From the NCBI GenBank assembly GCA_020402865.1, contig JADBYT010000026.1, forward strand, positions 67,001 through 131,000: a DNA stretch of 64,000 bases, in the 5' to 3' direction. The translations under genes and the position numbers were made by a program. The notes beneath the pieces were generated by a model, which was not told where the DNA came from, made no database searches, and saw nothing but the letters and a program-made list of their open reading frames with translations. This DNA is from Bacteroidota bacterium (GTDB taxonomy: Bacteria > Bacteroidota > Bacteroidia > Palsa-965). Numbering within the stretch: position 1 is the first letter of the stretch; every line of letters starts with the position of its first letter. Shown here one piece after another: positions 4,083 through 20,020 of the stretch.

Positions 4083-4145
4083 ATGCAGGCACTCGTTCAC
4101 ATCCATCATCATCACGCAACCGCAACGCGGGTGGCTGTGCATTGA
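4083..4145 (+). CDS. hisL: His operon leader peptide, 20 aa
   Basis: The peptide reads MQALVHIHHHHATATRVAVH and stops at TGA (4143-4145). Six of 20 residues are His, five of them at codons 6-11 (4098-4115), as expected of a regulatory leader whose translation reports charged tRNA-His. It lies between a strong promoter and an intrinsic terminator, and hisG follows. The peptide itself needs no function; ribosome stalling on the His codons controls the terminator. The identification rests on codon content and position, not on homology. Confidence 0.92.
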   Translation: MQALVHIHHHHATATRVAVH

Positions 4146-4182
4146 TGGTTCTGAAGGAGAATCTCATTTAAAGCCCACCCGC
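4120..4182 (+). promoter_or_regulatory. His attenuator: alternative hairpins 1:2 and 2:3
   Basis: Segment 1:2 is CCGC (4120-4123) with GCGG (4127-4130), lying just downstream of the His codons. Segment 2:3 is GCGGGTGG (4127-4134), perfectly complementary to CCACCCGC (4175-4182), which overlaps the 5' arm of the terminator. A ribosome stalled at 4098-4115 would cover segment 1 and free segment 2 to pair with 3, blocking the terminator. All three pairings are visible in the sequence; the mechanism is inferred from known enterobacterial attenuators. Confidence 0.85.
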
Positions 4183-4197
4183 AAGGTGGGCTTTTTT
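4171..4197 (+). terminator. Attenuator terminator in front of hisG
   Basis: A 9-bp stem, AAGCCCACC (4171-4179) with GGTGGGCTT (4185-4193), has loop CGCAA and is followed by a T run to 4197. It ends 22 bases before the hisG ATG. It would stop transcription when histidine is plentiful. Confidence 0.9.
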
Positions 4198-4218: not shown

Positions 4219-5079
4219 ATGTCAGCAAAACTTCGCATTGCCATTCAGAAATCAGGCCGTCTCAATGAAGACTCCATTCGCCTCTTGCGCGAATGTGGCA
4301 TTGAGTTTAACAATGGTCAGCAAAAACTAAAAGCCGAGGCGCACAATTTTCCGCTCGAAGTATTTTTTCTGCGCGATGATGATATTCCGCAGTATGTGGA
4401 AGATGGCGTGGCTGATATTGGTATAGTGGGCGAGAACGTACTGCTTGAAAAAGGCCGTAAAGTGAAACTGATAGAACGGCTTGGTTTCGGGAAATGCCGT
4501 TTATCGCTGGCTATTCCGCGCAACGAAAAATACAAATCGGTAAACGATCTCGACGGAAAACGTATTGCCACTTCGTATCCCAATTTGCTGAAACGTTTTC
4601 TGAAAAAGCAACAAATCAAAGCCGAGATTCACGAAATAAGCGGCTCGGTTGAAATTGCGCCGGGCATTGGCCTTGCTGATGCCATCTGCGATCTGGTGAG
4701 TTCGGGAAGCACGCTTCTCACCAACGGCTTGCGGGAAGTGGAAACTGTGCTTCAGTCTGAAGCGGTGCTGGTGGCTAATGCAAATCTCAATGAGGCACAA
4801 CAGCGGATTCTTGAACGTTTGCTGTTTCGCTTGCATGCCGTGCGCAAGGCCCGGCACAACAAGTATATTTTGCTCAATGCGCCTGATGAACAATTACCCG
4901 AAATCATTTCACTCATTCCCGGAATGAAAAGTCCTACCATTCTGCCGCTTGCCAAAAAAGGCTGGAGTTCGGTACATTCGGTGATACAGGAAGATGAGTT
5001 TTGGGATAGTATCGAACGCCTCAAAGCCGCCGGGGCAGAAGGAATTCTGGTGGTGCCCATCGAAAAAATGATCTTGTAA
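4219..5079 (+). CDS. hisG: ATP phosphoribosyltransferase (long form)
   Basis: HisG catalyses the first, committed step of histidine synthesis, joining ATP and PRPP. The 286-residue protein starts MSAKLRIAIQKSGRL and has the GIVGENVLLE and SGSTLLTNGL-type motifs of the PRPP/ATP site. Its length and C-terminal region (about residues 215-286, including the IPGMKSPTI stretch) mark the long form with its own regulatory ACT-like domain, which is allosterically inhibited by histidine and does not need HisZ. The frame extends upstream to 4186, but that start would lie inside the attenuator terminator, so the ATG at 4219 is chosen. Its stop overlaps the hisD start by one base. Confidence 0.97.
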   Translation: MSAKLRIAIQKSGRLNEDSIRLLRECGIEFNNGQQKLKAEAHNFPLEVFFLRDDDIPQYVEDGVADIGIVGENVLLEKGRKVKLIERLGFGKCRLSLAIPRNEKYKSVNDLDGKRIATSYPNLLKRFLKKQQIKAEIHEISGSVEIAPGIGLADAICDLVSSGSTLLTNGLREVETVLQSEAVLVANANLNEAQQRILERLLFRLHAVRKARHNKYILLNAPDEQLPEIISLIPGMKSPTILPLAKKGWSSVHSVIQEDEFWDSIERLKAAGAEGILVVPIEKMIL

Positions 5080-6371
5080 TGCAGTTGCTCATTAATCCGT
5101 CTCCCGCGCAGTGGCCCGAAATTCTTGCCCGGCCTGAAACCGATGCGCTGCAGCTTGAACCAGCCGTGCAGGGAATACTTGATGCCGTGCGCGCCGAAGG
5201 TGATGCCGCTGTAACACGTTTCACTGAAAAGTTTGATGGTGTGAAACGCACTGATTTTCGCGTACCGGACGAAGCGTTTGAAGAAGCAGCCCGCTTGCTT
5301 GGCGATGATCTCAAGGCTGCCATTCGTCTTGCCGCCCAAAATATCCGCACCTTTCACGCTGCACAGCTTGGCAACGAACCTGTGGTAGAAACCATGCCCG
5401 GCGTGTTGTGCAGCAGGCGCAGCGTAGCCATTGAGCGTGTGGGGCTTTACATACCCGGCGGCACAGCGCCTTTGTTTTCAACGGTGCTCATGCTGGGTAT
5501 TCCGGCGCAGCTGGCGGGGTGCCGCGAAGTGATACTTTGCACGCCACCGCAGCAAAACGGCAACGTACATCCGGCGGTGTTGTATGCGGCGCAGTGTTGC
5601 GGCATCAGCAACGTGTTTGCAGTTGGCGGCGTGCAGGCCATTGCGGCTATGGCGTTTGGCACCGGAAGCATTGCGAAGACATACAAAATATTTGGCCCCG
5701 GCAATCAGTATGTAACCTGTGCCAAACGCCTGCTTGCTCGTAACGGTATTGCCATAGACATGCCTGCCGGGCCTTCGGAAGTGGCTGTGCTGGCCGATGA
5801 TACGGTGCCAGCATCTTTTGTGGCGGCTGATTTACTTGCCCAGGCCGAACACGGTGCAGATAGTCAGGTGCTGCTGGTGAGTACAGATGTAACCGTACTC
5901 GAAAACGTGCAGCGCGAAATTGCCACACAGCTGGCACAACTTCCGCGCCGAAGTTTAGCCGAAGCCGCGTTGCAGCACAGCCGTTTTGTTGCTGTGCCCG
6001 ATGAGCGCACGGCCATGCAGCTGCTCAACAGCTATGCGCCCGAACACCTTATTCTTGCCTGCCGTAATGCCGAACAGCTTTGCAATGAGGTTGTGAATGC
6101 AGGCTCCGTGTTTGTGGGCGCATGGTCGCCGGAGAGTGTGGGCGATTATGCATCAGGCACCAACCATACACTGCCCACCAACGGCTTTGCCACAGCATGG
6201 AGCGGTGTGTCGGTTGACAGCTTCGTGAAAAAAATAACGTTTCAGCAGCTTTCTCCGCAAGGCCTGCAGCAAATTGGCCCTGCCGTAGAGCAGCTGGCCG
6301 AAGCCGAAGGGCTACAGGCGCACCGCAATGCCGTTACGGTAAGGCTCAACTACTTATCTTCATTGCTTTAA
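5079..6371 (+). CDS. hisD: Histidinol dehydrogenase
   Basis: This zinc enzyme oxidises histidinol to histidine in two NAD-dependent steps, the last of the pathway. The 430-residue length is normal for HisD. Visible motifs are IPGGTAPLFSTVLML (NAD-binding region), the PAGPSEVAVLAD signature, AQAEHGADSQ (zinc-ligand Gln and His), YAPEHL (catalytic Glu-His), GDYASGTNH (zinc-ligand Asp) and a C-terminal AHRNAV His. The start ATG overlaps the hisG stop (TAATG), indicating translational coupling. Three bases separate its stop from hisC. Confidence 0.98.
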   Translation: MQLLINPSPAQWPEILARPETDALQLEPAVQGILDAVRAEGDAAVTRFTEKFDGVKRTDFRVPDEAFEEAARLLGDDLKAAIRLAAQNIRTFHAAQLGNEPVVETMPGVLCSRRSVAIERVGLYIPGGTAPLFSTVLMLGIPAQLAGCREVILCTPPQQNGNVHPAVLYAAQCCGISNVFAVGGVQAIAAMAFGTGSIAKTYKIFGPGNQYVTCAKRLLARNGIAIDMPAGPSEVAVLADDTVPASFVAADLLAQAEHGADSQVLLVSTDVTVLENVQREIATQLAQLPRRSLAEAALQHSRFVAVPDERTAMQLLNSYAPEHLILACRNAEQLCNEVVNAGSVFVGAWSPESVGDYASGTNHTLPTNGFATAWSGVSVDSFVKKITFQQLSPQGLQQIGPAVEQLAEAEGLQAHRNAVTVRLNYLSSLL

Positions 6372-6374
6372 ACT

Positions 6375-7427
6375 ATGTCCGACTTCAATTTTCAGCAACT
6401 GCTGCGCAGCAATATTCGTAATCTGGTGCCTTACTCTTCAGCCCGGGCTGAGTTTAAGGGCAAGGCATCTGTATGGCTTGATGCCAACGAAAACGCCTGG
6501 GGATCGCCGGGAAAAGAGGCATACAACCGCTATCCCGATCCGATGCAGATGAAGCTGAAACAAAAACTCAGCAGCATCAAAGGATTATTGCCCGATTGCA
6601 TGTTTATCGGAAACGGTAGCGATGAGGCAATAGATCTGCTCTATCGTGCCTGCTGCAATCCCGGTAAAGACAATGTAATTGTTTGTCCGCCCACCTACGG
6701 TATGTACGAAGTGAGCGCAAACATTAATGATGTAGAAGTAAGAAGCATTCCTCTGCTTCCCGATTTTCAGCTTGATCTCGAACGTATTTCGGAGGCTGTA
6801 GATGAACACACCAAACTCATCTTCCTCTGTTCGCCAAATAATCCCACGGGTAATTGTCTCGAGAGAGAAGATGTGGAAATTGTGCTGAATAATTTCAATG
6901 GTTTGGTGGTGGTAGATGAAGCTTATATCAATTATGCCCGTTACCGCAGTTTTATCCCTGATTTAACTGAATATCCGAATCTGGTTGTGTTGCAAACACT
7001 TTCTAAAGCATGGGGGCTTGCAGGTTTGCGTGTAGGTATGGCATTTGCTTCGCCGGAAATAATTGAAGTGCTTAACCAGATCAAACCGCCTTATAATATA
7101 AGCGAAGCCACACAGCTACTTGCCCTGGAAGCATTGGAGCACTATACGCTGGTGAATACCCAGATCAAAAAAACGGTGGAGGAGCGTGAAATTCTTGTAC
7201 AGCGTATTGCAGGATTATCGTTTGTGCAAAAAGTATATCCATCGGATGCTAATTTTCTTCTGGTAAAAATGGACGATCCCAAACGCGTGTACAAATTGCT
7301 GGTAGATGCCGGTATTGTAGTGCGTGACCGCTCGTCGCAGCAGGGTTGCGAAGGTTGTTTGCGAATCACTGTAGGTACACCGGAGGAAAATATGCGACTT
7401 ATGGATGCGTTGAAAGCAATGGAGTAA
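6375..7427 (+). CDS. hisC: Histidinol-phosphate aminotransferase
   Basis: This PLP enzyme converts imidazole-acetol phosphate to histidinol phosphate. The protein has 350 residues, the normal length. Fold-type I aminotransferase landmarks are the N-terminal NENAWGSP substrate-binding motif, SPNNPTGN, the DEAYINY aspartate/tyrosine, LSKAWGLAGLRVG with the PLP-binding Lys, and LRITVGTPEEN with the substrate-carboxylate Arg near the C-terminus. It lies between hisD and hisB in the usual order, with 47 bases before hisB. Confidence 0.97.
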   Translation: MSDFNFQQLLRSNIRNLVPYSSARAEFKGKASVWLDANENAWGSPGKEAYNRYPDPMQMKLKQKLSSIKGLLPDCMFIGNGSDEAIDLLYRACCNPGKDNVIVCPPTYGMYEVSANINDVEVRSIPLLPDFQLDLERISEAVDEHTKLIFLCSPNNPTGNCLEREDVEIVLNNFNGLVVVDEAYINYARYRSFIPDLTEYPNLVVLQTLSKAWGLAGLRVGMAFASPEIIEVLNQIKPPYNISEATQLLALEALEHYTLVNTQIKKTVEEREILVQRIAGLSFVQKVYPSDANFLLVKMDDPKRVYKLLVDAGIVVRDRSSQQGCEGCLRITVGTPEENMRLMDALKAME

Positions 7428-7474
7428 ACCACCGGATATACAATAACCAGCACTGAATCCATATCATTCATTAC

Positions 7475-8608
7475 ATGAAAATGAGTAACCAGAAAAAACG
7501 TATTCTCTTTATCGACCGTGATGGTACGCTGATTAAAGAACCACCTGTTGATTTTCAGATTGACAGTTTTGAAAAACTGGAATTTCTTCCCGGAGTGTTT
7601 ACGTGGCTGGGAAAGATTGCGCGTGAACTTGATTTTGAACTGGTAATGGTAACCAATCAGGATGGCTTGGGCACGGCTTCATTTCCTGAACATACATTCT
7701 GGCCGGTACATGAGTTGATGATGAAAACGCTTGCCGGCGAAGATATTCAGTTCAGGAGTGTGCATATTGATGTGAGTTTTGCGCACGAGGGAAAACCTAG
7801 CCGAAAGCCGGGTACTGCAATGCTTGTGGATTACCTGAACGGCGAATTTGATCTTGAAAATTCGTTTGTGATCGGTGATCGCATTACCGATGTTTTGCTG
7901 GCAAAAAATCTTGGCGCACAGGCAATATTCATCCGCAATTACGATTCGCCCGAAGGGCATGAGCCGGATATTGCGCTCACAGCCACACACTGGCGTGATA
8001 TTTACGATTTTCTGCGCATGCCTGACCGTAAAGTGACGCACGCGCGTAAAACGCTTGAAACCGATATTCAGCTTACGCTCAGTCTCGATGGAACCGGTAT
8101 TTCTTCAATAAGCACCGGCATAGGCTTTTTTGATCACATGCTTGATCAGCTTGCGCGACACGGCATGATCGATCTCACGCTCAAAGCACAAGGTGATTTG
8201 CACATCGACGAGCATCACACCATCGAAGACACTGCAATTGCACTTGGCGAAGCCGTGAACAAAGCACTGGGCGATAAACGCGGCATTGAGCGTTATGCCG
8301 CCGAACGGATACTGCCTATGGATGATTGTCTGGCACAGGTAGCTGTTGATTTTGGTGGCAGACCCTGGCTGGTGTGGGACGCCGAATTCAAACGCGAGAA
8401 GATTGGCGATTTCCCGGCAGAGATGTTTATGCACTTCTTCAAATCCTTTAGTGATGCGGCACGATGCAACCTGAACATCAAAGCGGAAGGGCAAAATGAG
8501 CATCATAAAATCGAAATTATTTTCAAAGCATTTGCCAAGTGCATACGTGATGCCGTGCGCCGTGACCCCCGGAACAATAAATTGCCAAGCACCAAAGGCA
8601 TGCTGTAA
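7475..8608 (+). CDS. hisB: Bifunctional histidinol-phosphatase / imidazoleglycerol-phosphate dehydratase
   Basis: The 377-residue length fits the fused enzyme. The N-terminal ~165 residues are a HAD phosphatase (DRDGT nucleophile motif, [22 protein letters not shown]) that dephosphorylates histidinol phosphate. The C-terminal ~195 residues are the dehydratase ([43 protein letters not shown]), with the His/Glu manganese ligands that open imidazoleglycerol phosphate. ATGs at 7475 and 7481 are both possible starts; the choice changes only two residues. No terminator is seen before the trp leader, so his transcripts could read into trpL. Confidence 0.97.
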
Positions 8609-8645
8609 CCCTTGCAAATAAAGCGAAATGAAATTTTTTTGAGAA

Positions 8646-8653
8646 TAAATTTG
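8646..8653 (+). promoter_or_regulatory. Possible -7 box for the trp leader transcript
   Basis: TAAATTTG fits TAnnTTTG and lies 33 bases before the trpL ATG, but no TTG is found 19-21 bases upstream. A separate trp promoter is therefore plausible but weakly supported, and read-through from hisB remains possible. Confidence 0.35.
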
Positions 8654-8686
8654 CTTTTCTCGAAATCGTTCCCAAATATTTGCAGC

Positions 8687-8749
8687 ATGAAAATGAATCT
8701 TTCAATCAACAAACATTGGTGGCATACGTCGGAGTACTCCAACGTGTGA
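8687..8749 (+). CDS. trpL: Trp operon leader peptide, 20 aa
   Basis: The peptide is MKMNLSINKHWWHTSEYSNV followed by TGA (8747-8749). Tandem Trp codons at 11-12 (8717-8722) are flanked by His at 10 and 13, and Tyr is at 17. A hairpin lies just after the Trp codons, and a strong terminator sits between the leader stop and trpE. This is the standard layout of a ribosome-mediated attenuator for tryptophan. A shorter start at 8693 is also possible. The assignment rests on Trp content and position, since leader peptides are not conserved enough for homology. Confidence 0.9.
   Translation: MKMNLSINKHWWHTSEYSNV
8726..8745 (+). promoter_or_regulatory. Hairpin immediately after the trpL Trp codons
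   Basis: ACGT (8726-8729) pairs with ACGT (8742-8745), and GGA (8731-8733) with TCC (8738-8740), around loop GTAC with one C-A mismatch. It occupies the place of the pause or 1:2 hairpin. GTGTGA at 8744-8749 is complementary to TCACAC (8793-8798) in the terminator, a possible but short 2:3 pairing. I could not find a longer antiterminator. Confidence 0.55.
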
Positions 8750-8781
8750 CATTGTGTTTGCTGATGGTAATCATATACCTG

Positions 8782-8817
8782 AAGAGACCCGCTCACACAG
8801 CGGGTCTCTTTTTTTTT
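8782..8817 (+). terminator. Attenuator terminator in front of trpE
   Basis: A perfect 12-bp stem, AAGAGACCCGCT (8782-8793) with AGCGGGTCTCTT (8799-8810), has loop CACAC and continues into T to 8817. It ends 35 bases before the trpE ATG. Confidence 0.93.
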
Positions 8818-8852
8818 GCTCTATCGCACCAGTCAATAATTCTAAAAATAAA

Positions 8853-10304
8853 ATGACGAAAACTGACGAACAAACCACTGCTTTTTTTGCCGCTCAGCAT
8901 GAGAATTTACTCATCACTGTGTGGCCGATGCAGGCTGATATGTGTACGCCGGTAAGCGCACTGCTAAAAATGCGCGATCGTTGCAATGGCGTTTTACTGC
9001 TCGAAGGCAATGAACGTATAGCCTCCGGAGGAAGTCATTTTTCCTTTCTTGCGGCCTCTCGTTTGGCTGAAATTAAAATACAGAACGGAAGCGTGTATTA
9101 TCAGCAGGATGGTGAGGCACCTGTTGTGCTGGATGTGGAAAAGATCGGGTCGGTTCAGGATTTGCTGAATGTGTTCCGCATGAGTTTTCCTGAGCCTGAG
9201 TTCTCACAGCCTGTGCCGGCAGGTGCTGCCGGACTATACGGATATGCAGGTTTTGAGGCGGCAGCACTGTTCGATGAAGCAAATGTGTGCATCAGTTCTG
9301 ATAGTATTCCGGAGCTTCGCTATGCCGCTTATCGTTTTGTACTGGTGTTTGATCATTTGCAGCATACACTTTCGCTCATCGAAATCCGTCAGAAAAACGA
9401 GCCTTCCAGAGCCGCTGAAATAGAACAGCTTTTACAGCAGCAGGATGTGCCGCGTTTCCGTTTTACTACCGAAGGCAGCGAGTTGGCTGATATGAGCGAG
9501 AGCCGTTATCTGGAATGTGTGGAAAAGGCACAGGAGCATTGTAAGCGCGGCGATGTGTTTCAACTTGTGCTTTCACGGCGTTTTTCGCAGGCCTTTTCGG
9601 GCGATGAGTTCAATGTCTATCGTGCGTTGCGGGCCATTAATCCGTCGCCCTTTTTGTTTTATGCTGATTTTGGCAACTATCGACTCTTTGGCTCATCGCC
9701 CGAGGCGCAGCTGATGATTAAGGATAACCGCGCAGTTGTTCATCCGATTGCGGGTACATGTAAGCGCACGGGAGATGCGGTTGCCGATAAAGCTGCTGAA
9801 GAAAAACTCCTTGCCGATGCAAAAGAAACTGCTGAACATGTAATGCTTGTTGATCTTGCCCGCAATGACCTCAGCCGGAGTCTGAAAAATGTAAAGGTTG
9901 ATGTATTCCGCAACGTGCAGCAGTTTTCACATGTACAACATCTGGTATCGGAGGTGAGCGGCGAATTGACACCTCAGCTGAATCCGTTTCAATTGCTTGC
10001 CGATACATTTCCTGCAGGCACATTAACCGGCGCTCCGAAAGTAAAAGCTATGCAACTTATTGCAAAGTATGAAGCATCGCCCCGAAGCTGGTATGGAGGA
10101 TGTATTGGTCAGGCCGGTTTCGACGTCACATTCCGGCAAGCTATACTTATCCGAAGTTTTCTCAGCTACCGCCAGCAACTCGAATACCGTGCCGGTGCAG
10201 GTGTTGTTGAGGCTTCGCAGCCAGCCGCTGAACTCGACGAAATAAACCGGAAATTGCAGGCGCTGCGTCTGGCTATGGTGCAGGCTTCCACGTTAAACAA
10301 CTGA
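8853..10304 (+). CDS. trpE: Anthranilate synthase component I
   Basis: TrpE forms anthranilate from chorismate with ammonia supplied by TrpG. The 483-residue product carries the chorismate-utilising core: AGTCKRTGD, ETAEHVMLVDLARNDLSR, FPAGTLTGAPKVKAMQ and a GGCIGQAGF C-terminal motif. The frame stays open back to 8754, but that start would pass through the attenuator terminator, so the ATG at 8853 is chosen. In the N-terminal region, where feedback-sensitive TrpE enzymes have LLES, this protein has LLEG (Gly52). That Ser contacts tryptophan in enterobacterial TrpE, so allosteric control may differ. The stop lies 4 bases before trpG. Confidence 0.96.
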   Translation: MTKTDEQTTAFFAAQHENLLITVWPMQADMCTPVSALLKMRDRCNGVLLLEGNERIASGGSHFSFLAASRLAEIKIQNGSVYYQQDGEAPVVLDVEKIGSVQDLLNVFRMSFPEPEFSQPVPAGAAGLYGYAGFEAAALFDEANVCISSDSIPELRYAAYRFVLVFDHLQHTLSLIEIRQKNEPSRAAEIEQLLQQQDVPRFRFTTEGSELADMSESRYLECVEKAQEHCKRGDVFQLVLSRRFSQAFSGDEFNVYRALRAINPSPFLFYADFGNYRLFGSSPEAQLMIKDNRAVVHPIAGTCKRTGDAVADKAAEEKLLADAKETAEHVMLVDLARNDLSRSLKNVKVDVFRNVQQFSHVQHLVSEVSGELTPQLNPFQLLADTFPAGTLTGAPKVKAMQLIAKYEASPRSWYGGCIGQAGFDVTFRQAILIRSFLSYRQQLEYRAGAGVVEASQPAAELDEINRKLQALRLAMVQASTLNN

Positions 10305-10308
10305 TCGT

Positions 10309-10890
10309 ATGAACCGCATTCTCGTTTTTGATAATTACGATTCATTTACCTACAATCTCGTGCATCTGGTGGAAACACTTACCGAAGCACCGGTGGATGT
10401 GGTACGTAATGATAAGTTGCCCCTGGAAGATGCTGACGCCTACTCACACATTATTCTCTCGCCCGGTCCGGGCATTCCCGAAGAAGCTGGCGCTTTACTG
10501 CCATTAATAAAAAGGTATGCCGGACAAAAAAATATGCTGGGTGTTTGCCTCGGCCATCAGGCTATTGCCGAAGCATTGGGCGGTAAACTAATCAACCTGG
10601 GAAAAGTATTTCACGGGGTGGCCACCCCTGTAAGCACCGCGCAAAATGCAGGCTACCTTTTCCGTGATATGCCTCACACATTTCTTGCCGGCCGCTATCA
10701 TTCATGGGTTGTGGATGAACAAACACTGCCTCCATCACTTCGTATTACTGCCCGTGATGAATCAGGACAAATTATGGCGTTTGAACATGAACAATACCAG
10801 CTTGCCGGTGTACAGTTTCATCCTGAATCGATTCTTACTGAGTACGGCGCTGTTATACTTCGGAATTTTATAAATGCACCTTCACGATGA
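10309..10890 (+). CDS. trpG: Anthranilate synthase component II (glutamine amidotransferase)
   Basis: A class I glutamine amidotransferase of 193 residues that releases ammonia for TrpE. It shows DNYDSFTYNL, the SPGPG oxyanion strand, the nucleophile elbow GVCLGHQAI with catalytic Cys, and QFHPES with the catalytic His and Glu. Position after trpE and before trpD assigns it to tryptophan; PabA-like dual use in folate synthesis is possible in organisms with one such subunit. Its end overlaps trpD by ATGA. Confidence 0.96.
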   Translation: MNRILVFDNYDSFTYNLVHLVETLTEAPVDVVRNDKLPLEDADAYSHIILSPGPGIPEEAGALLPLIKRYAGQKNMLGVCLGHQAIAEALGGKLINLGKVFHGVATPVSTAQNAGYLFRDMPHTFLAGRYHSWVVDEQTLPPSLRITARDESGQIMAFEHEQYQLAGVQFHPESILTEYGAVILRNFINAPSR

Positions 10891-11891
10891 AAAATGTTCT
10901 GAATGAGTTGTTTGCCGACAGGCAGCTTACCGAAAAAGAAGCCGAGCTGCTTATGCTTTCCATTGCGGATGGTGATGGCACGGATGCGCAGCTTGCTGCA
11001 CTGATGACAGTATATAAAATGCGCAGCATTACTCCTGATGAACTTCGTGGTTTCAGAAATGCACTGCTTCAAAGTGCTTTAACTGTTAACTTGGATGCTT
11101 CGGATGCCATTGACGTGTGTGGCACCGGCGGCGACGGAAAAAATACATTCAATATTTCTACGCTTGCCGCCATTGTTACAGCTGCTGCGGGCGTTAAAGT
11201 TGTAAAGCATGGTAATTACGGAATTTCGTCGGTGTCCGGCTCTTCGGATGTACTGCAAATGCTGGGCTACCGGTTTACGAATGAAACAGATGCATTAAGC
11301 GAACAGCTCGGTCAAAACGGAATTTGTTTTTTGCATGCGCCGCTTTTTCATCCGGCTCTTCAACGTGTAGGAGAAATTCGCCGGCAACTGGGCTTCCCTA
11401 CTTTTTTTAATTTATTGGGCCCGCTTGTCAATCCGGCCCGTCCGGGCGCTCAGGTAATGGGTGTAAACAGCAAGGCACAGGCAAGGCTTTGTCACTATCT
11501 CGCACAGCAGCAGGATAAGCGTTATTTCATCGTTCACTCATCCGACGGCTACGATGAAATTTCGCTGACGGCCTCTTTTTATCTCTATTCTCCACAGGGC
11601 GATCAGTTGCTGGAGCCTGAAGAGTTTGGAATGAAGCGCAACCGGCCGGAGGATATTGCCGCAGGTTCATCACGCGATCAGTCGGCACAGTGTTTTTTGA
11701 ATATTCTCAACGGGAAGGGAACACCGGCACAGGAAAATGTGGTTGTGGCAAATGCTGCTGTGGCGCTGGTATGCGGTAATGCGGTGAGCAGCTTTTCAGA
11801 AGGGATATCAAAAGCACGTTGGGCGTTGCGTTCGGGCGAGGCGCTGAGAAAATTAAACAGAAGTATTCAACTTTCAAGAAAAGAGGCATGA
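10887..11891 (+). CDS. trpD: Anthranilate phosphoribosyltransferase
   Basis: TrpD transfers phosphoribosyl from PRPP to anthranilate. The protein has 334 residues with an N-terminal helical domain, then the CGTGGDGKNTFNIST PRPP/magnesium loop and KHGNYGISS. It stands alone rather than fused to TrpG. ATGA overlaps join it to trpG before and trpC after, showing tight translational coupling. Confidence 0.97.
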   Translation: MKNVLNELFADRQLTEKEAELLMLSIADGDGTDAQLAALMTVYKMRSITPDELRGFRNALLQSALTVNLDASDAIDVCGTGGDGKNTFNISTLAAIVTAAAGVKVVKHGNYGISSVSGSSDVLQMLGYRFTNETDALSEQLGQNGICFLHAPLFHPALQRVGEIRRQLGFPTFFNLLGPLVNPARPGAQVMGVNSKAQARLCHYLAQQQDKRYFIVHSSDGYDEISLTASFYLYSPQGDQLLEPEEFGMKRNRPEDIAAGSSRDQSAQCFLNILNGKGTPAQENVVVANAAVALVCGNAVSSFSEGISKARWALRSGEALRKLNRSIQLSRKEA

Positions 11892-12700
11892 GCATACTGC
11901 ATAACATCATTGAAAAAAAACGTGACGAAGTGAATGAGCGCAAAGCCCTTTATCCGGTTGCGCTGCTCGAACGGAGTTTATATTTCTCCACGCCTTGCGT
12001 TTCACTCACACATTACCTTCGTCGTAGCGGTAGTTCGGGTGTCATTGCCGAATTCAAAAGACGGTCACCTTCGCGTGGATGGATTAATCAGTATGCCGAT
12101 GCGGCAACGGTGAGTGTGGGGTATATGCAAAGCGGTGCGGCTGCACTGAGTGTGCTCACCGACGAAAGTTTTTTCGGCGGCTCTTCAAAAGATCTTGAAG
12201 TGGTGAGGAGTTTTAATTACTGTCCGGTCCTTCGTAAGGATTTTATTATTGATCCGTATCAGGTAATAGAAGCGCGCTCGATCGGGGCTGATGCAATACT
12301 GCTTATTGCTGCCGCACTCGACCGTGTACAGGTATCGGAACTTGCTGCTGCAGCTGCCCAACTTGGCATGGAAACGCTGCTTGAAATTCATTCGGCTGAT
12401 GAGCTTGACCGTATTGTGGATGGGATAAGTGTAGTAGGGGTAAACAACCGTTCGCTGAAAGATTTCAGTGTGGATATAAAACGTTCGCTGGATCTTTTCC
12501 CGGAGTTACCAGCATCGTTACCGAAAATTTCGGAAAGCGGTTTGTCCGAACCGTGGCAGGTAAATCACTTGCGTGAGGCTGGTTTCGACGGTTTCCTGAT
12601 CGGCGAACAATTTATGAAGTCGCCGGATCCGGTTCGCGCAGCTGCCAGTTTCATTACCCAGTTGTCACACAAGCAGCAGTTGGAAAACGTGTTGAACTAA
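11888..12700 (+). CDS. trpC: Indole-3-glycerol phosphate synthase
   Basis: TrpC closes the indole ring by decarboxylation of the ribulotide from TrpF. The protein has 270 residues, is a TIM barrel, and is not fused to TrpF. It contains AEFKRRSPSRGWI (catalytic Lys), VLTDESFFGGSSKDL, LRKDFIIDPYQ, GVNNRSLKDFSVD and SESGLS. The open frame reaches back to 11819 inside trpD, but the ATG at 11888 gives the standard N-terminus (MSILHNIIEKKRDEV) and an ATGA overlap with the trpD stop. TrpF follows after 14 bases. Confidence 0.97.
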   Translation: MSILHNIIEKKRDEVNERKALYPVALLERSLYFSTPCVSLTHYLRRSGSSGVIAEFKRRSPSRGWINQYADAATVSVGYMQSGAAALSVLTDESFFGGSSKDLEVVRSFNYCPVLRKDFIIDPYQVIEARSIGADAILLIAAALDRVQVSELAAAAAQLGMETLLEIHSADELDRIVDGISVVGVNNRSLKDFSVDIKRSLDLFPELPASLPKISESGLSEPWQVNHLREAGFDGFLIGEQFMKSPDPVRAAASFITQLSHKQQLENVLN

Positions 12701-12714
12701 ACCCGGTTTACGTT

Positions 12715-13362
12715 ATGAAAGTTAAAGTATGCGGACTGCGCAATCGCGCAGACATCCTTTCTGTTGCCCAAAGCGGAGCTGATTTTATCGGTTTTAATTT
12801 CTACGCCCAGTCGTCAAGGTATGTGCTTCCTGCTCTTGATCCTTCCTTCTGCGCTACGTTGGGTAAATTATTTCCTGATGTAAAGAAGACAGGCGTGTTT
12901 GTGAATGCAAGCGAAGAAGAAGTGGATGCAACCATTGCTTTATTTGGGTTAAATGCCGTGCAGTTTCATGGTGATGAACCTGAGGCCTATTGCCGTTCGT
13001 TCATGTCTTACATTACGGTTATTAAAGCTGTTCAGGTAAAGTGTGCAGATGATATTACCGGATTAGCCCGCTATGCGAAGTGTTGTCATCTGTTGTTACT
13101 CGATACAGCTTCGGTACAGCGGGGTGGAAGCGGGGAGAAGTTTAACTGGGAATTGCTTTCGGACTACTCTGCAAATATCCCGTTTATACTTGCAGGCGGT
13201 ATCGGGCCTGCTGATGCGGATGCTATTCATTCTCTTGCACATCCGATGCTGGCAGGGGTAGATATTAATAGCCGCTTTGAAATTTCACCCGGACAGAAAG
13301 ACTGTCCGGCCATTACCAAATTCATCAAACAGCTTCACAATGCAAACATTCGCACAGCCTGA
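12715..13362 (+). CDS. trpF: Phosphoribosylanthranilate isomerase
   Basis: TrpF performs the Amadori rearrangement of phosphoribosylanthranilate and is the tryptophan counterpart of HisA, encoded further down the same block. The 215-residue TIM barrel has KVCGLRN with the catalytic Cys, QFHGDE, LLDTAS (catalytic Asp), AGGIGPADAD and the GVDINSRFE phosphate loop. A separate trpF means HisA need not serve both pathways, as PriA does in some bacteria. The trpB start lies 23 bases inside its 3' end. Confidence 0.96.
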   Translation: MKVKVCGLRNRADILSVAQSGADFIGFNFYAQSSRYVLPALDPSFCATLGKLFPDVKKTGVFVNASEEEVDATIALFGLNAVQFHGDEPEAYCRSFMSYITVIKAVQVKCADDITGLARYAKCCHLLLLDTASVQRGGSGEKFNWELLSDYSANIPFILAGGIGPADADAIHSLAHPMLAGVDINSRFEISPGQKDCPAITKFIKQLHNANIRTA

Positions 13363-14530
13363 TACCAAAGGCTACTACGGAAAGTTTGGTGGCGCATTTA
13401 TTCCTGAATTGCTGCGTGCAAATGTGGAAGAGCTGCGTGAAAACTATCTCGCTATCTTAACTGACAATGACTTTTGCAGGGAACTGGATGAATTGCTTTC
13501 ACAGTATGTGGGACGCCCTACTCCGTTGTATGAAGCCCGGCGACTTTCGGCTGTTACGGGTTATCGTGTGTTTCTGAAACGCGAAGATCTTTGCCATACC
13601 GGTGCACATAAAATTAACAATGCCGTAGGGCAGATTCTTCTTGCGAAACGACTTGGAAAAAAACGCATCATTGCCGAAACCGGAGCCGGACAGCATGGCG
13701 TGGCCACAGCTACCGTGTGTGCGCTTGCGGGTTTGGAATGTGTGGTGTATATGGGTGCAACGGATATTGCACGGCAGGCTCCCAATGTTGGGCGGATGAA
13801 GTTGCTTGGGGCAAAAGTGATTCCGGTACACAGCGGTTCAGCCACACTCAAAGATGCAACCAATGAAGCCATCCGCGATTGGATTGCCAATGCTGCAGAT
13901 ACACATTACATCATTGGCTCGGTAGTTGGGCCGCACCCGTATCCCGATCTGGTGGCGCGTTTGCAAGCCGTAATCAGTAAGGAAATCCGTGCACAGCTCG
14001 AAACCCGCACCGGTAATCCTTTGCCTGATGCAGTAGTGGCTTGTGTGGGGGGCGGAAGTAATGCGGCCGGAGCATTTTATCATTTTCTGGATGAGTTATC
14101 TGTAAAACTTTTTGCCGTAGAAGCAGCCGGCGAAGGCATACACTCAGGCCGTTCGGCCGCTACAACCGTGCTGGGGCGCCCGGGAGTGATACACGGTAGT
14201 TATACATTGCTCATGCAGGATGAATTCGGACAAATTACCGAGCCACATTCTGTTTCTGCCGGACTTGATTATCCGGGTATCGGCCCCTTGCATGCTTCAC
14301 TGTGTGTAAACAACCGTGCCGTTTTTCTTTCGGCCACCGATCAGGAAGCCATTTCTGCTGCACAATTACTGATGCAAACTGAAGGTATTATTCCTGCACT
14401 GGAAACGGCGCACGCATTGGCTGTTCTCCACAGACTTCCGCTTGAGCCGGGCGCACTGGTGGTGCTTAATCTTTCAGGGCGCGGTGATAAAGATTTATCT
14501 GCATACCTCTCACAACTGCCCAATGAATAA
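13340..14530 (+). CDS. trpB: Tryptophan synthase beta subunit
   Basis: TrpB condenses indole with serine using PLP. The 396-residue product contains HTGAHKINNAVGQ with the PLP-binding Lys, ETGAGQHGVATA and CVGGGSNAAG, the phosphate-binding glycine loop. It is the standard TrpB1 type that works with TrpA. The frame runs back to 13277, but MQTFAQPDTKGYYGKFGG from 13340 is the usual N-terminus. The gene overlaps trpF by 23 bases and trpA by 8. Confidence 0.98.
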   Translation: MQTFAQPDTKGYYGKFGGAFIPELLRANVEELRENYLAILTDNDFCRELDELLSQYVGRPTPLYEARRLSAVTGYRVFLKREDLCHTGAHKINNAVGQILLAKRLGKKRIIAETGAGQHGVATATVCALAGLECVVYMGATDIARQAPNVGRMKLLGAKVIPVHSGSATLKDATNEAIRDWIANAADTHYIIGSVVGPHPYPDLVARLQAVISKEIRAQLETRTGNPLPDAVVACVGGGSNAAGAFYHFLDELSVKLFAVEAAGEGIHSGRSAATTVLGRPGVIHGSYTLLMQDEFGQITEPHSVSAGLDYPGIGPLHASLCVNNRAVFLSATDQEAISAAQLLMQTEGIIPALETAHALAVLHRLPLEPGALVVLNLSGRGDKDLSAYLSQLPNE

Positions 14531-15323
14531 ACTGGACCAATTATTTCTGCTCACGCCGCATAATTTGCTTGCCGTGTATGCCACTGCCGGTTACCCTGAT
14601 CTGAACAGTCTTGCCACCGTATTGCCTGCCTTGCAGGAGGCCGGAGCTGATCTGATTGAAGTGGGTATGCCTTTTTCTGATCCGGTAGCTGATGGTGACG
14701 TGATACAGCAAACCAGCGCAATTGCTTTGCGAAACGGTATGCACATGCAACTTATGTTTGAACAGCTGCAACAATTGAAAGTCAGCGTGCTTACGCCAAT
14801 TGTATTAATGGGCTACATTAATCCGGTGCTGAGTTTTGGCATGGAAAAATTTTTGCAGTGTGCTTCGTCAGCAGGTGTTTCCGGAATTATCCTTCCCGAT
14901 CTTCCTCCTGAAGAATACGAAGCCTCCTATCGTCATTTGTTTGCCCGATATGATCTTCATGCTGTTTTTCTGGTTACACCTTCCACACCTGATGCGCGCA
15001 TCAGTTACATTGCATCACTGAGCGGCGGTTTTTTGTATGCCGTGGCAGAAGCTGGTGTAACCGGGTCGAAAAATACATGGCCGGCTTCACGCACCGAATA
15101 CCTGAAAAGAGTTAAGCAACTCGCCGGTAATCTTCCTGTTCTTGCAGGCTTTGGCATACACAATCATCAGATGTTTACAGCAGTTTGCGAAGTCACTAAC
15201 GGAGCCATTACCGGAAGCGCTTTTTTGCGTGCACTTGGAAAAGGCGATGATATACAAACCACTATTCACGCATTTGTTAAACAATTAACAGGTAGTTTCA
15301 ATGATAGTTCAATTGAAAAATAA
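14523..15323 (+). CDS. trpA: Tryptophan synthase alpha subunit
   Basis: TrpA cleaves indole-3-glycerol phosphate and channels indole to TrpB. The 266-residue TIM barrel shows YATAGYPD, IEVGMPFSDPVADGDVIQ with catalytic Glu and Asp, GYINPVL, LPDLPPEE, GVTGSK and a GFGIHN phosphate loop. Start at the ATG 14523 (MNKLDQLF) rather than an upstream in-frame codon inside trpB. Its end overlaps the DAHP synthase start by 23 bases. Confidence 0.97.
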   Translation: MNKLDQLFLLTPHNLLAVYATAGYPDLNSLATVLPALQEAGADLIEVGMPFSDPVADGDVIQQTSAIALRNGMHMQLMFEQLQQLKVSVLTPIVLMGYINPVLSFGMEKFLQCASSAGVSGIILPDLPPEEYEASYRHLFARYDLHAVFLVTPSTPDARISYIASLSGGFLYAVAEAGVTGSKNTWPASRTEYLKRVKQLAGNLPVLAGFGIHNHQMFTAVCEVTNGAITGSAFLRALGKGDDIQTTIHAFVKQLTGSFNDSSIEK

Positions 15324-16317
15324 CATCACATCTGCACAGGAAATGCAGGTGAAAAACGAAGTGAGTCTTTCGGGATTTTCACTGCGGGAAGTGGTTACGG
15401 CTTCGCAGCGTTATCTGGTTTGTATCGGGAGCAAGCCGGTTGATTTACGTCGCATTGGCTGTTTGCCCGGTGTGCGCGATGTGCATCGGGTAACAGATGC
15501 CAATCAGCTTGTTTCGCGTGAGTGGCGGGTGAAAGATACGGTGATTGATATGGGGGATGCATTACACATCGGAACAGGTGAATTCACACTTATGGCAGGG
15601 CCTTGTTCCATTGAATCGGAAGCACAGATTGCGGCAACCGTTCAGTTCCTTTCGCAGCAAGGCGTGCGTGTAATGCGTGGCGGTGTGTTTAAGCCGAGAA
15701 GTTCGCCGTATGCGTTTCGCGGATTGGGGATTGAAGGGTTGAAATTGTTTTCATCGCTTTGCCATGAGGCCGGGATAAAAATTGTGAGTGAAGTAATGCA
15801 GTCGGATCAGATTGAGCAGATGCAGCCTTATGTGGATATTTTTCAGGTAGGTGCGCGAAACGCGCAGAATTTTACGCTGCTTGATGCGCTTGGACAATGC
15901 GGGAAACCGGTATTGCTGAAGCGTGGAATTTCCGGCACGGCTGAAGAATTATTATCGGCAGCAGAGTATATTTTTTCCAACGGCAATGAATCCATCATAC
16001 TCTGTGAACGCGGAATCCGCAGCTATGAAAAAGCCTATCGCAATACACTCGATCTGAATATTGTACCTGTGCTCAAATCGCGTACACATCTGCCTGTGGT
16101 GGTTGACCCTTCGCACGGTATCGGTATTCGCCGGCACATTCCGCAAATGGCGCTGGCTGCCGTAATGGCAGGTGCCGACGGGTTGCTGCTTGAAATTCAT
16201 CCCCAGCCTGAAAAAGCAGCATCAGATGGCGCGCAAACACTTAACTTTGAAGAGGCCGCTTTGCTTTTTTCACAACTCAGGCAAGCGGTTGCTCTTCGTC
16301 AATCTTTTCAACTGTGA
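15301..16317 (+). CDS. 3-deoxy-7-phosphoheptulonate (DAHP) synthase, type I-beta
   Basis: The enzyme condenses PEP with erythrose 4-phosphate, the entry step of the shikimate pathway that supplies chorismate to TrpE. The product has 338 residues: an N-terminal ~75-residue ferredoxin-like regulatory domain, then the KDSA-related barrel with [43 protein letters not shown] and VDPSHG. Placement between trpA and hisH puts it under the trp attenuator. The regulatory domain resembles those in enzymes inhibited by Tyr or Phe, but the effector here cannot be read from sequence. Confidence 0.95.
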
Positions 16318-16910
16318 AAATTGTTCTCATCGACTATCGCGCCGGCAATGTGCAGTCTGTATTGTTTGCGCTTGAACGTTTGGGTGTAAATGCCACACTC
16401 AGTAATGATGCTGCCGAAATTGCCTCCGCCGATAAGGTGATTTTTCCCGGTGTAGGTGAAGCATCAACCGCAATGCAGGTATTGCATAAACAACAGCTTA
16501 ATACACTTATTCCGCAACTAAAGCAGCCGGTGCTTGGCATTTGTCTGGGCATGCAGCTGCTTTGCCGGCATTCCGAAGAAGGTGATACGGCTGCACTAGG
16601 CGTGTTTGATGTGGATGTGAAACGCTTTGTTCCGCAACCGGCAGATGCTTTTCAGAAAGTTCCGCACATGGGCTGGAATACGCTTGATGTAATGCGTGGC
16701 CCCTTGTTTGAAGGTCTTCCTGAAAAGGCCGCAGTTTATTTTGTACATAGTTTTTACGCCGCACTTTGCACCGATACTGCTGCAGAAGCAAATTACAATA
16801 TGCCTTTCAGTGCCGCACTTTGCCGCGATAATTTTTACGCCGTGCAGTTTCACCCCGAAAAAAGCGGTGAAGCCGGTGAACGTATCCTTCAAAATTTTCT
16901 ACAACGCTGA
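16314..16910 (+). CDS. hisH: Imidazole glycerol phosphate synthase, glutaminase subunit
   Basis: HisH supplies ammonia from glutamine to HisF. The 198-residue protein has DYRAGNVQSV, PGVGEA, GICLGMQLL with catalytic Cys, PHMGWN, FVHSFYA, and QFHPEKSG with catalytic His and Glu. The start is a GTG at 16314, overlapping the DAHP synthase stop (GTGA). The stop shares one base with the hisA ATG. It restarts the his genes after the trp block. Confidence 0.96.
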   Translation: MKIVLIDYRAGNVQSVLFALERLGVNATLSNDAAEIASADKVIFPGVGEASTAMQVLHKQQLNTLIPQLKQPVLGICLGMQLLCRHSEEGDTAALGVFDVDVKRFVPQPADAFQKVPHMGWNTLDVMRGPLFEGLPEKAAVYFVHSFYAALCTDTAAEANYNMPFSAALCRDNFYAVQFHPEKSGEAGERILQNFLQR

Positions 16911-17644
16911 TGCAGATTATTCCCGCCATCGACTTAATAAACGGGGCGTGTGTACGCCTTGAACAGGGCGATTACAACCGCCAGACACACTATGCAGAAG
17001 ATCCGCTTGAAATGGCAAAAGCATTTGAAGCGGCTGGTGTTACACGGCTTCATCTGGTAGATCTTGACGGAGCAAAAGCCGGGCGGGTAATCAATTTGCC
17101 GGTGCTCGAACGGATTGCCTCGCATACAGCGCTGCAAATTGATTTTGGCGGTGGTGTGAAATCGGCAACTGATGTGCAGCAGGTGCTTGATGCCGGCGCG
17201 CAATGGGTTGCTGTGGGCAGTATAGCCGTGAAATCACCTGAAACTATGCTTCAGTGGTTTCAGGAGTTTGGGGCATCGCGCTTTTTTATTGGTGCCGATG
17301 TGCGCGGCACACAACTGGCCGTGAGCGGCTGGCTGGAACAAACACAGGTTGAAATAGTACCGTTTATTCAGCAATATTTGCAGCTGGGAGCCGCTTCTTT
17401 TTTCTGTACCGATATTGCCCGCGACGGGCTTCTTCAGGGCCCTTCCGTTGATTTATACCGTATGCTGCTGGAAGAATGTCCCGGCCTTCAGTTAACCGCC
17501 AGCGGTGGCGTAGCCAGTGTAAACGATCTTAGCTTGCTGCAGGAATGCGGTTGCGTGGCCGCAATTACCGGGAAAGCCATTTACGAAGGCCGGATTACAC
17601 TGAATGATCTGCAACGCTGGAACAGTAACGGATCCAATAGCTGA
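16910..17644 (+). CDS. hisA: Phosphoribosylformimino-AICAR-P isomerase (ProFAR isomerase)
   Basis: HisA is the Amadori isomerase of histidine synthesis, a barrel of 244 residues made of two half-barrels. Visible landmarks are [14 protein letters not shown] (catalytic Asp), [34 protein letters not shown] (catalytic Asp) and [11 protein letters not shown] overlaps the hisH stop by one base; hisF follows after 5 bases. Confidence 0.97.
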
Positions 17645-17649
17645 TTGAT

Positions 17650-18414
17650 ATGCTTACGAAACGAATAATTCCCTGTCTGGATATAAAAGACGGCCGCACG
17701 GTGAAAGGTGTAAACTTTGAAGGACTTCGCGATGCGGGTGATGCAGTGGAACTGGCCGAGCGTTATTCACATGAAGGTGCGGATGAGCTCGTATTGCTCG
17801 ATATTACAGCTACACACGAAAAGCGAAAGACCGTAGCCGGTTTTGTGCGTCGTGTGGCCTCGCGCATCAATATTCCGTTTACAGTAGGCGGCGGCATTAC
17901 CACAGCCGATGATGTAGCCGCGCTGCTTGATAATGGTGCCGATAAAGTTTCTGTAAACTCGGCTGCATTTCGCAATCCGGCACTTATCGACGAGCTGGCA
18001 AAGCGTTTTGGCAGTCAGTGCGTGGTGCTTGCGGTTGATGCCAAAGCCGAAACCGACGGTATTGCCCGTGTGTATCTGGGTGGTGGCCGCGTGCCAACAA
18101 ACACAGAGGCGCTGCATTGGATCCGCGAAGCGGTAAACCGCGGAGCCGGCGAAATCTTACTTACGTCGATGAATCACGACGGCACAAAATCAGGCTTCGC
18201 GCTTGAGCTTACACGGCAGGTTTCCAAAGCCGTAAATGTGCCGGTTATCGCTTCGGGCGGAGCGGGGAACATGGCGCATTTTTATGAAGCATTTACGCAG
18301 GGACATGCTGATGCCGCGCTGGCGGCCAGTCTTTTTCACTTTGGCGAATTATCAGTTCCCGCGCTGAAACAGTATCTTGCTTCGCAAAATATTCCTGTTC
18401 GTCTTACTCATTAA
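17650..18414 (+). CDS. hisF: Imidazole glycerol phosphate synthase, cyclase subunit
   Basis: HisF uses HisH-derived ammonia to make imidazoleglycerol phosphate and AICAR. The 254-residue barrel has [17 protein letters not shown] (catalytic Asp), [29 protein letters not shown] (second catalytic Asp) and [11 protein letters not shown]. Six bases separate it from a lipoprotein gene that is not a his gene. Confidence 0.97.
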
Positions 18415-18420
18415 TCTGCC

Positions 18421-19125
18421 ATGCGTAAATTCATACCGCTGCTTTTGCTGTTTGGCTTGCTTGCTTCGTGCGCTCCCACACGTTATGTACGTCCGCTCGA
18501 ACATAAAACACATGCTGCAGCTGCCAGCTTTGGTGGCCCTGTTATTGGTTTTGCCGGCGCAGTGCTGCCCATTCCGTTTACAAGCATTGGCTACGGCTAT
18601 GGCCTGAAGCCACAACTTACCGGCTATGCCAATTTGCACACAACCAGTTTGCTGTTTGGTAATTTTCAAACCGATTTGGGTATTTGTACAAAACTCTGGA
18701 GCAGTTCTGATTCTCGGTTGCTGTTAACCGGAAATGCGGGAGTTAATTTCGCATTCAATTTTAAAAATGGCGATCCGCGTATATGGCCACAGCTTGATCT
18801 GAATGTAAGTTACACGTTGGGCAAAGGAAAAAGTTTTGTGTATGCAGGCGCCGGAAGCTGGTTTGAGTTTTCGAAAACCCGCGCCCACGAACAGCCGCAA
18901 CCTGCGCAGGTTTTACTTTATCCGCAACTGGGTTTTCAGCTTGTGCGTACCCGGCTCAATTATACGTTTGAACTGAAAGGCCTGCAACTCGGCACTCCGA
19001 ATACGCCCAATGTGGTAGATTATAAAGGAATAGGCGGTAACGGAGCGATTGGTTTTTACTTTGGCCTCACTTACCGCTTTGGCAAATCAGCAGAAGTTAG
19101 TACTACCACACCTGTAAATCTTTAA
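18421..19125 (+). CDS. Hypothetical lipoprotein with beta-barrel-like features, 234 aa
   Basis: A lipoprotein signal (MRKFIPLLLLFGLLASC, lipid Cys17) is followed by glycine- and aromatic-rich strand-like segments and a closing LTYRFG motif, like small outer-membrane or surface proteins of Bacteroidota. No family is recognised. It lies 6 bases after hisF and 5 bases before the next gene, on the same strand, so it must be co-transcribed with the his-trp block despite having no obvious role in amino-acid synthesis. Base use looks the same as in its neighbours, so there is no sign of recent insertion. Confidence 0.75.
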   Translation: MRKFIPLLLLFGLLASCAPTRYVRPLEHKTHAAAASFGGPVIGFAGAVLPIPFTSIGYGYGLKPQLTGYANLHTTSLLFGNFQTDLGICTKLWSSSDSRLLLTGNAGVNFAFNFKNGDPRIWPQLDLNVSYTLGKGKSFVYAGAGSWFEFSKTRAHEQPQPAQVLLYPQLGFQLVRTRLNYTFELKGLQLGTPNTPNVVDYKGIGGNGAIGFYFGLTYRFGKSAEVSTTTPVNL

Positions 19126-19130
19126 GCAAG

Positions 19131-20018
19131 ATGCGTAAACAAGTATTCTTCTTTCTGCTGCTGCTTACCGGTTGTGCCCGGCTCGACAGCTCATTGTATA
19201 ATCTTGGTGATAAAATCACAGAATATAAACTTGACAATTACACCGGCGAGCAGGATTTTATTCTTGATGCCTCATACGCTATTCCTGACAGTCTGATTCA
19301 TCTGTTCACACTTGCTTCGCAGGGGCCGGATGAAACATCGGCTACAACAATTCATGCAATTTATATTGGCGATATTTCGCGCATTGCAACGGATACTGTA
19401 ATTCTGTATTGCCACGGAAACAAATGGCACATGGATTTCTATTGGCAACGCGCCAAATTGCTGGCCAATACCGGGCATAAAAACCGGTTTGGGGTGCTTA
19501 TGCTCGATTATCGCGGCTTTGGTTTGTCGGATGGCGAACCCACCGAGCAGGGTATGTATGCCGATGTGGATGCGGCACAACGCTGGCTTCGCGATAACGG
19601 ACTTACTGGCGACAGGCTGATGATGTATGGGTTCAGTCTGGGCAGCGCGGCGGCCTGCGAACTCACTGCGCATCCGCGCACACTTACCCCGGCCAAACTT
19701 TTGCTCGAAGCGCCGTTTGCTTCTTCGGCAGTAATGGTGGCCGATGGCAGTCAGCTGAATATGCCGGCAACTTACTTTACCGATCTTGAAATAGATAATG
19801 CCGAAGAAATAAAAAACATTCAGCAGCCTTTATGCTGGCTGCATGGAACGAATGATAATTTTCTCAGCATTACTACACATGGCGAGGTTGTTTACAATAA
19901 TCATAACGGTGTATATAAAGAAGCGCACCGCATTGATGGTGCCGACCACGGTGAAGTGCCCGCCAAAACAGGATTTCAGACATACAGCAACTTGCTGTTA
20001 CAGTTTATTACCCGATAA
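19131..20018 (+). CDS. Alpha/beta-hydrolase lipoprotein, 295 aa
   Basis: Lipoprotein signal with lipobox LLTGC (Cys15). The mature part is a serine hydrolase: an oxyanion HGNKW motif, DYRGFGLSDGEP, the nucleophile elbow YGFSLGS, HGTNDNF with the acid, and GADHGEV with the catalytic His. This resembles the ABHD/BEM46-type hydrolases. Substrate is unknown; esterase or acyl-peptidase activity on envelope compounds is possible. The hisIE start lies two bases after its stop, so the pair of lipoprotein genes is embedded in the his operon. Confidence 0.85.
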   Translation: MRKQVFFFLLLLTGCARLDSSLYNLGDKITEYKLDNYTGEQDFILDASYAIPDSLIHLFTLASQGPDETSATTIHAIYIGDISRIATDTVILYCHGNKWHMDFYWQRAKLLANTGHKNRFGVLMLDYRGFGLSDGEPTEQGMYADVDAAQRWLRDNGLTGDRLMMYGFSLGSAAACELTAHPRTLTPAKLLLEAPFASSAVMVADGSQLNMPATYFTDLEIDNAEEIKNIQQPLCWLHGTNDNFLSITTHGEVVYNNHNGVYKEAHRIDGADHGEVPAKTGFQTYSNLLLQFITR

Positions 20019-20020
20019 CA

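Follow-up and report, generated by a model that had tools for sequence, protein, structure and literature searches.

Organization of the locus

The window, that is, the whole stretch of 64,000 nucleotides analysed here, carries on its forward strand a cluster of his and trp genes whose order, from the open reading frames (ORFs) and NCBIfam models, is hisGDCB-[trpL-trpEGDCFBA-aroF]-hisHAF-orf-orf-hisIE (4219-20620). The ORFs and NCBIfam models place hisG, hisD, hisC and hisB at 4219-8608 and trpE, trpG, trpD, trpC, trpF, trpB and trpA at 8853-15323. A DAHP synthase gene, named aroF here (15301-16317; NCBIfam), is overlapped at its end by hisH, which opens the hisH, hisA and hisF segment (16314-18414; ORFs and NCBIfam), and hisIE lies at 20021-20620 (NCBIfam). 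The two ORFs between hisF and hisIE (18421-20018) have no NCBIfam match at 1e-10. The trp operon is nested inside the his operon. The NCBIfam models bear out the initial annotation, which had placed hisHAF and hisIE downstream of the trp leader. hisF is present in a single copy in the genome, the sole other match being hisA-like with 25 percent identity, so hisHAF stands behind the Trp terminator. As in a multivalent attenuator, genes for both amino acids are found behind the trpL terminator: trpEGDCFBA for Trp, hisHAF and hisIE for His. The source genome (G000) comprises 4.9 Mb in 49 contigs, and its order numbers 12 genomes in our collection.

A second leader precedes hisG on the same strand. 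The hisL ORF, MQALVHIHHHHATATRVAVH, was read from the sequence at 4083-4145 and is followed at 4170-4195 by a terminator (AAAGCCCACC..GGTGGGCTTT and a T run). In the stall model described below, antiterminator pairing is full through the last His codon of its run and then drops, and hisL thus behaves as a His attenuator in this model. The his-trp-his cluster has two attenuators in series, the His-run leader (4083-4195) and then trpL.

Anatomy of the trpL leader

The trpL ORF, MKMNLSINKHWWHTSEYSNV, extends on the forward strand from the ATG at 8687 to the stop codon at 8747-8749, and homologous leaders are found at related loci. Its central part reads K9 H10 W11 W12 H13 T14 S15 E16 Y17, exactly as first noted from the letters, with a His on either side of the Trp pair and a Tyr behind. 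One His codon, CAT (8714-8716), stands at position -1, ahead of the two TGG codons (8717-8722); the other, also CAT (8723-8725), stands at position +0, just after them, and starts the 5′ arm of the competing hairpin; the Tyr codon TAC is at 8735-8737. The tip of the competing (1:2) hairpin, the inverted repeat ACGTCGGAGTACTCCAACGT (8726-8745), does begin 3 nt past the Trp codons, as had been claimed. The 5′ strand of the antiterminator, GTGTGA (8744-8749), overlaps the stop codon of the leader, a position common to related leaders, and its 3′ strand, TCACAC (8793-8798), lies inside the loop of a strong intrinsic terminator (AAGAGACCCGC / GCGGGTCTCTT and a T run; 8782-8817), which separates the leader ORF from the first gene. 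The locus combines a short leader ORF carrying a run of two codons for the operon's own amino acid with an intrinsic terminator ahead of trpE, as a trp-type attenuator does. Across the whole window, no Rfam family (T-box, Trp_leader, His_leader and others) gave a match at gathering score.

Upstream, a candidate Bacteroidota promoter is made of TTTG (8650-8653) and AATATTTG (8675-8682; forward strand), which has one mismatch to TAnnTTTG. The accessible text of PMC9723704 places this consensus at positions -12 to -5. Since the candidate box ends only 4 nt ahead of the trpL ATG, we predict a leaderless mRNA. The box is common at this place: 184 of 290 leaders have TAnnTTTG in the 120 nt upstream, versus 30 of 290 after shuffling, and in 104 of these 184 it stood 4-10 nt before the ATG. 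In Flavobacterium psychrophilum, the same source puts leaderless mRNAs at 5.5 percent.

Folding and stall model

The trpL region folds far more stably than shuffled sequences (z -6.5). In this fold, the 8726-8745 hairpin caps a longer stem, in which the second His codon pairs with the GUG of the antiterminator strand. The initial annotation had found only a 6-bp antiterminator candidate, GTGTGA with TCACAC; the two strands stand where it put them, but the predicted pairing is longer. In the free RNA it extends into a hairpin of -13.8 kcal/mol that engages about 13 bases of the terminator side.

We then modelled a stalled ribosome by removing, for each A-site codon, the RNA it would cover, its leading edge being set 13 nt ahead of the A site, with 11-16 nt tried as well; the nascent RNA through the last base of the terminator loop was folded, and pairing between the terminator side and the leader side was summed, with no kinetics. 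The modelled sum stays at 13.0-13.3 for H10, W11, W12, H13, T14 and S15, and falls to 12.0 at E16, 6.9 at Y17 and 1.9 at the stop codon. Both His and both Trp codons lie on this plateau at every edge between 11 and 16 nt, H10 being slightly lower at 11-12 nt, so that codons for two amino acids share one predicted stall window, and stalling at any of them leaves, in silico, an antiterminator that is mutually exclusive with the terminator. The family averages follow curves of the same shape, with a plateau reaching +0 in the f36 family (0.86) and about +2 in the f15 family, and only 0.19-0.30 at the stop. From the end of the plateau, the His codon after the Trp run lies at, or close to, the last position where a stall would still be useful. 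The Tyr codon, earlier hinted at as a possible further signal, is taken in only poorly by the modelled stall window, and the model rules it out as a third sensor (6.9 of 13.3 at the standard edge).

As far as they were examined in silico, trpL has the defining features of both trp-type and multivalent attenuators.

Leaders with and without downstream his genes

A class-wide sample, a named-genome scan and two family scans (f36 and f15) with hisF positions supplied the trpE loci, and leaders were read upstream of trpE; the trpE locus of G134 was left out. Of 287 loci examined, 40 were dropped (contig ends or unclear distance) and 20 had no leader that we could find, which left 227 Bacteroidota loci scored. 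The family f36 takes in the Chitinophagaceae assembly G235, whose TrpE locus agrees with L170. A Trp-run leader is present in at least 181 of 201 loci and lacking in 18 of 201, and a hairpin followed by a T run was found in 133 of 136 leaders of the two families. The antiterminators come in two styles. In most f36 leaders, CGGGG(C) lies within the C-terminus of the leader; in many others, the stop codon region provides a GTGAACAG-like strand that pairs with the terminator arm or loop, and the GTGTGA/TCACAC pair of the window belongs to this second, stop-codon style.

His occupies position +0 in 61 of the 65 loci with hisH/A/F downstream versus 43 of the 162 without (227 loci; Fisher 6e-22, kinship ignored), the four linked exceptions being L192, L281, L282 and L332. 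The position profile (226 loci) is narrow: with hisHAF, His is found at +0 in 61/65, at -1 in 13/65 and at any other position in at most 6/65; without hisHAF, at +0 in 43/161, at -1 in 1/161, at -2 in 11/161 and elsewhere in at most 6/161. One alternative is a plain Trp attenuator, in which the Trp codons alone sense and the flanking His are incidental or inherited. It accords with the near universality of the Trp runs, with the absence of His at +0 from 119 of the 162 unlinked loci, and with the persistence of this residue in many loci devoid of his genes, e.g. in g84 and Hymenobacter; it does not account for a hisHAF effect confined to +0 and -1.

Within families, 22 ambiguous rows were dropped and 4 loci had no leader. 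In f36 alone, His stands at +0 in 46 of 47 loci with hisHAF versus 11 of 22 without (p 4e-6); in f15 alone the figures are 11 of 13 versus 20 of 32 (p 0.18, not significant), the f15 hisHAF loci having been sampled only among the best TrpE matches, with 17 listed f15 regions left out. Comparisons of near relatives go the same way. In g75, L068 and L082 read WWWH and L086, whose hisF is 16 kb away, reads WWWS; L086 was scored as non-contiguous, its hisF lying downstream on the same strand, and is only partly safe as a clean linkage loss. In f36, G473 and G397 carry hisF elsewhere, and their version of the HTN..RGL leader has QTN. The window's own family includes three hisHAF loci with WWH, against WWL in the three g3 loci, in none of which hisHAF was seen; one of the latter (L053) ends about 5 kb past trpE.

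Is it the amino acid that is kept, or the RNA? The codon CAY might be retained for pairing with RTG in the competing hairpin, and not for coding His. Indeed, in the window the fold of minimum energy has CAU 8723-8725 paired with GUG, and the adjacent codons of f36 leaders (ACA, AAC) are strongly fixed at the nucleotide level. However, at +0 T and C are interchangeable as the third base (36 CAT and 10 CAC in f36 with hisHAF), and CAA or CAG is found in 1 of 47 f36 loci with hisHAF versus 5 of 22 without. The resulting CAY:CAR ratio of 46:1 versus 11:5 (p 0.003) arises while the same CGGGG antiterminator is kept. Moreover, pairing does not explain a dependence on downstream his genes, and we consider this constraint very unlikely to be what maintains the codon. 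Another possibility is that the WWWH nascent chain together with the free amino acid stalls the ribosome. TnaC provides a precedent for such an arrest peptide, and a short motif next to the Trp run is indeed conserved. Nevertheless, the residues before the run vary widely, the run itself is of two or three Trp, and His is freely replaced by other residues when the his genes are not downstream, which makes an arrest peptide extremely improbable here.

Correlated evolution of His codons and hisHAF linkage

To take kinship into account, a FastTree phylogeny of 226 TrpE sequences was built and midpoint-rooted, one identical TrpE having been dropped. Fitch parsimony counts 15 changes for hisHAF linkage and 25 for His at +0. 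Making His at +0 dependent on linkage gives a much better fit than independence (LR 25.6, 2 df, p 2.7e-6; full dependent model, LR 27.8, 4 df, p 1.4e-5), and none of 100 simulations under independence, run for +0 only, reached the observed LR, the largest giving 8.9. His is lost at a rate of 0.275 without hisHAF versus 0.016 with it, and gained at 0.023 versus 0.22. His at -1 also depends on the downstream his genes (LR 16.8, p 2e-4). Were the His residues incidental or inherited, a downstream hisHAF would not be expected to slow their loss about 17-fold (LR 25.6), and we therefore judge it unlikely that trpL senses through its Trp codons alone.

On the same tree, the control residues were null (His outside the stall window, LR 1.3; Gln at +0, 2.1; Arg, Ser or Asn at +0, 0.8), as was the length of the Trp run (three or more Trp, LR 1.0). 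A downstream aroF also had no effect (LR 0.34 on 140 tips), versus 16.3 for hisHAF linkage on those tips. The dependence of His at +0 persists when the extra f36 loci are removed (LR 12.2, p 0.002). Among 15 independent tip pairs, a mean of 6.8 were for the association, 1.1 against and 7.0 ties (sign p ~0.035); the number of clean independent contrasts is modest. The initial annotation had left room for chance, since only two His are present; the null simulations (at +0 only) and the position profile reject chance as the origin of His at +0 and -1, and the phylogenetic test places it beyond chance. It had also asked, as a test, whether the flanking His codons are kept only where hisHAF is in the operon. 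A strong tendency of this kind exists and survives correction for phylogeny, but the word "only" fails, with 43 of 162 unlinked loci carrying His at +0.

Linkage alone does not explain why a quarter of the unlinked loci have His at +0; this may reflect a lag after separation, pathway cross-talk or, in part, RNA constraint. The His and Trp pathways both use PRPP, and His at +0 could be a mark of a wider cross-talk between them, and not of hisHAF linkage as such. The frequency of His at +0 without linkage (43 of 162 loci), which clearly exceeds that at other positions, accords with such cross-talk. Cross-talk does not, however, predict a dependence on linkage, and some of these loci may represent recent losses, 7 of the 15 pairs being ties, mostly with His on both sides. 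As an alternative to hisHAF linkage, we find cross-talk quite unlikely.

Discussion

We consider it likely that trpL is a ribosome-mediated transcription attenuator responding to Trp or His shortage. This reading builds on the observed leader anatomy and correlated evolution and on switching as modelled, ribosome-polymerase coupling in Bacteroidota being assumed; the response to His shortage is what we infer from them. The idea of a dual sensor, already put forward in the initial annotation, gains support from the phylogeny-corrected association of His with hisHAF and from a stall window that holds both His codons. A ribosome stalled with H10, W11, W12 or H13 in its A site would cover the 5′ arm of the competing hairpin and leave GTGTGA free, and the antiterminator would form; a ribosome reaching the stop codon would cover GTGTGA, and the terminator would form. 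A shortage of either amino acid is probably sensed by this one switch.

Because the trp operon lies inside the his operon, the Trp terminator would shut off hisHAF in a cell rich in Trp but short of His. Placing His codons within the stall window would solve this by making a Trp-OR-His gate; as long as his genes lie downstream, selection would maintain the His codon, and it would relax once they leave. With one or two His codons only, the His response may be weak. More broadly, and with somewhat less assurance, we favour the view that trp leaders in Bacteroidota act as modular sensors, with regulatory codons that track the gene content of the operon: when hisHAF is joined to trp, His codons would be gained or preserved in the stall window, forming the Trp-OR-His gate, and separation would erode this gate. 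Leader translation may begin at the transcription start or only a few bases from it.

The E. coli trpL leader has tandem Trp codons, a competing hairpin, an antiterminator and a terminator before trpE, and multivalent attenuators combine Thr and Ile codons (thr) or Ile, Val and Leu codons (ilv). The present leader resembles the former in its short ORF, tandem Trp, competing hairpin, antiterminator and intrinsic terminator before trpE. Unlike in E. coli, His codons flank the Trp pair within the predicted stall window and his genes lie behind the same terminator; moreover, the 5′ strand of the antiterminator overlaps the leader stop codon and the start is predicted to be leaderless. As in the thr and ilv attenuators, a single leader holds regulatory codons for at least two amino acids, the ones that the operon makes. 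However, the thr and ilv amino acids share enzymes or precursors, whereas two separate pathways are here joined by operon arrangement, and in the trpL set the gain and loss of the second codon follow the genes. As in HisL leaders, His regulatory codons precede his genes, and the window has such a leader at hisG; trpL differs in having two His codons beside Trp and no run. The E. coli trp attenuator is summarised, and the thr and ilv operons are named as attenuated, in the accessible part of PMC1183508.

Naville and Gautheret, in 2010 (PMC2965389), were aware of no leader peptide system demonstrated beyond Proteobacteria and Actinobacteria before their own Firmicutes cases. A 2021 study, in the part available, reports strong clues for leader peptide attenuation in Flavobacterium psychrophilum (PMC9723704), and this accessible account of the Flavobacteriaceae makes no mention of dual sensing or of a trp-his arrangement. 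In the openly available literature searched, we found no published description of a Trp-His leader, and only brief mentions of leader peptide attenuation in Bacteroidota. On the best reading, Trp-His sensing would be new among multivalent attenuators, the attenuation mechanism itself being known. If true, multivalent attenuation would extend to a pair of pathways linked through gene order, in a phylum whose leader peptide attenuation has received little study, and the trp leaders offer a testable case of a regulatory peptide adapting codon by codon to operon rearrangement, for which the linked and unlinked relatives are a natural experiment.

Several loci show other arrangements of his genes around trp. 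In L084 and L100, hisIE alone lies about 41 nt after trpA and the leaders read WWWH; when these two loci are counted as linked, the LR becomes 26.8. In one f36 genus, the hisHAF-linked L332 (G467) reads WWWQH, with the His shifted by one codon, and L277 (G542) reads WWWQQ, contig ends blurring the linkage of G542. In Nonlabens, L171, L177, L182 and L245 have hisGDCB with its own His leader behind trpA (hisGDC as far as the sequence extends in L182), and the His of their trp leaders stands two codons before the Trp run. Without hisGDCB behind trpA, L179 has Gln two codons before the run, yet L194 has His.
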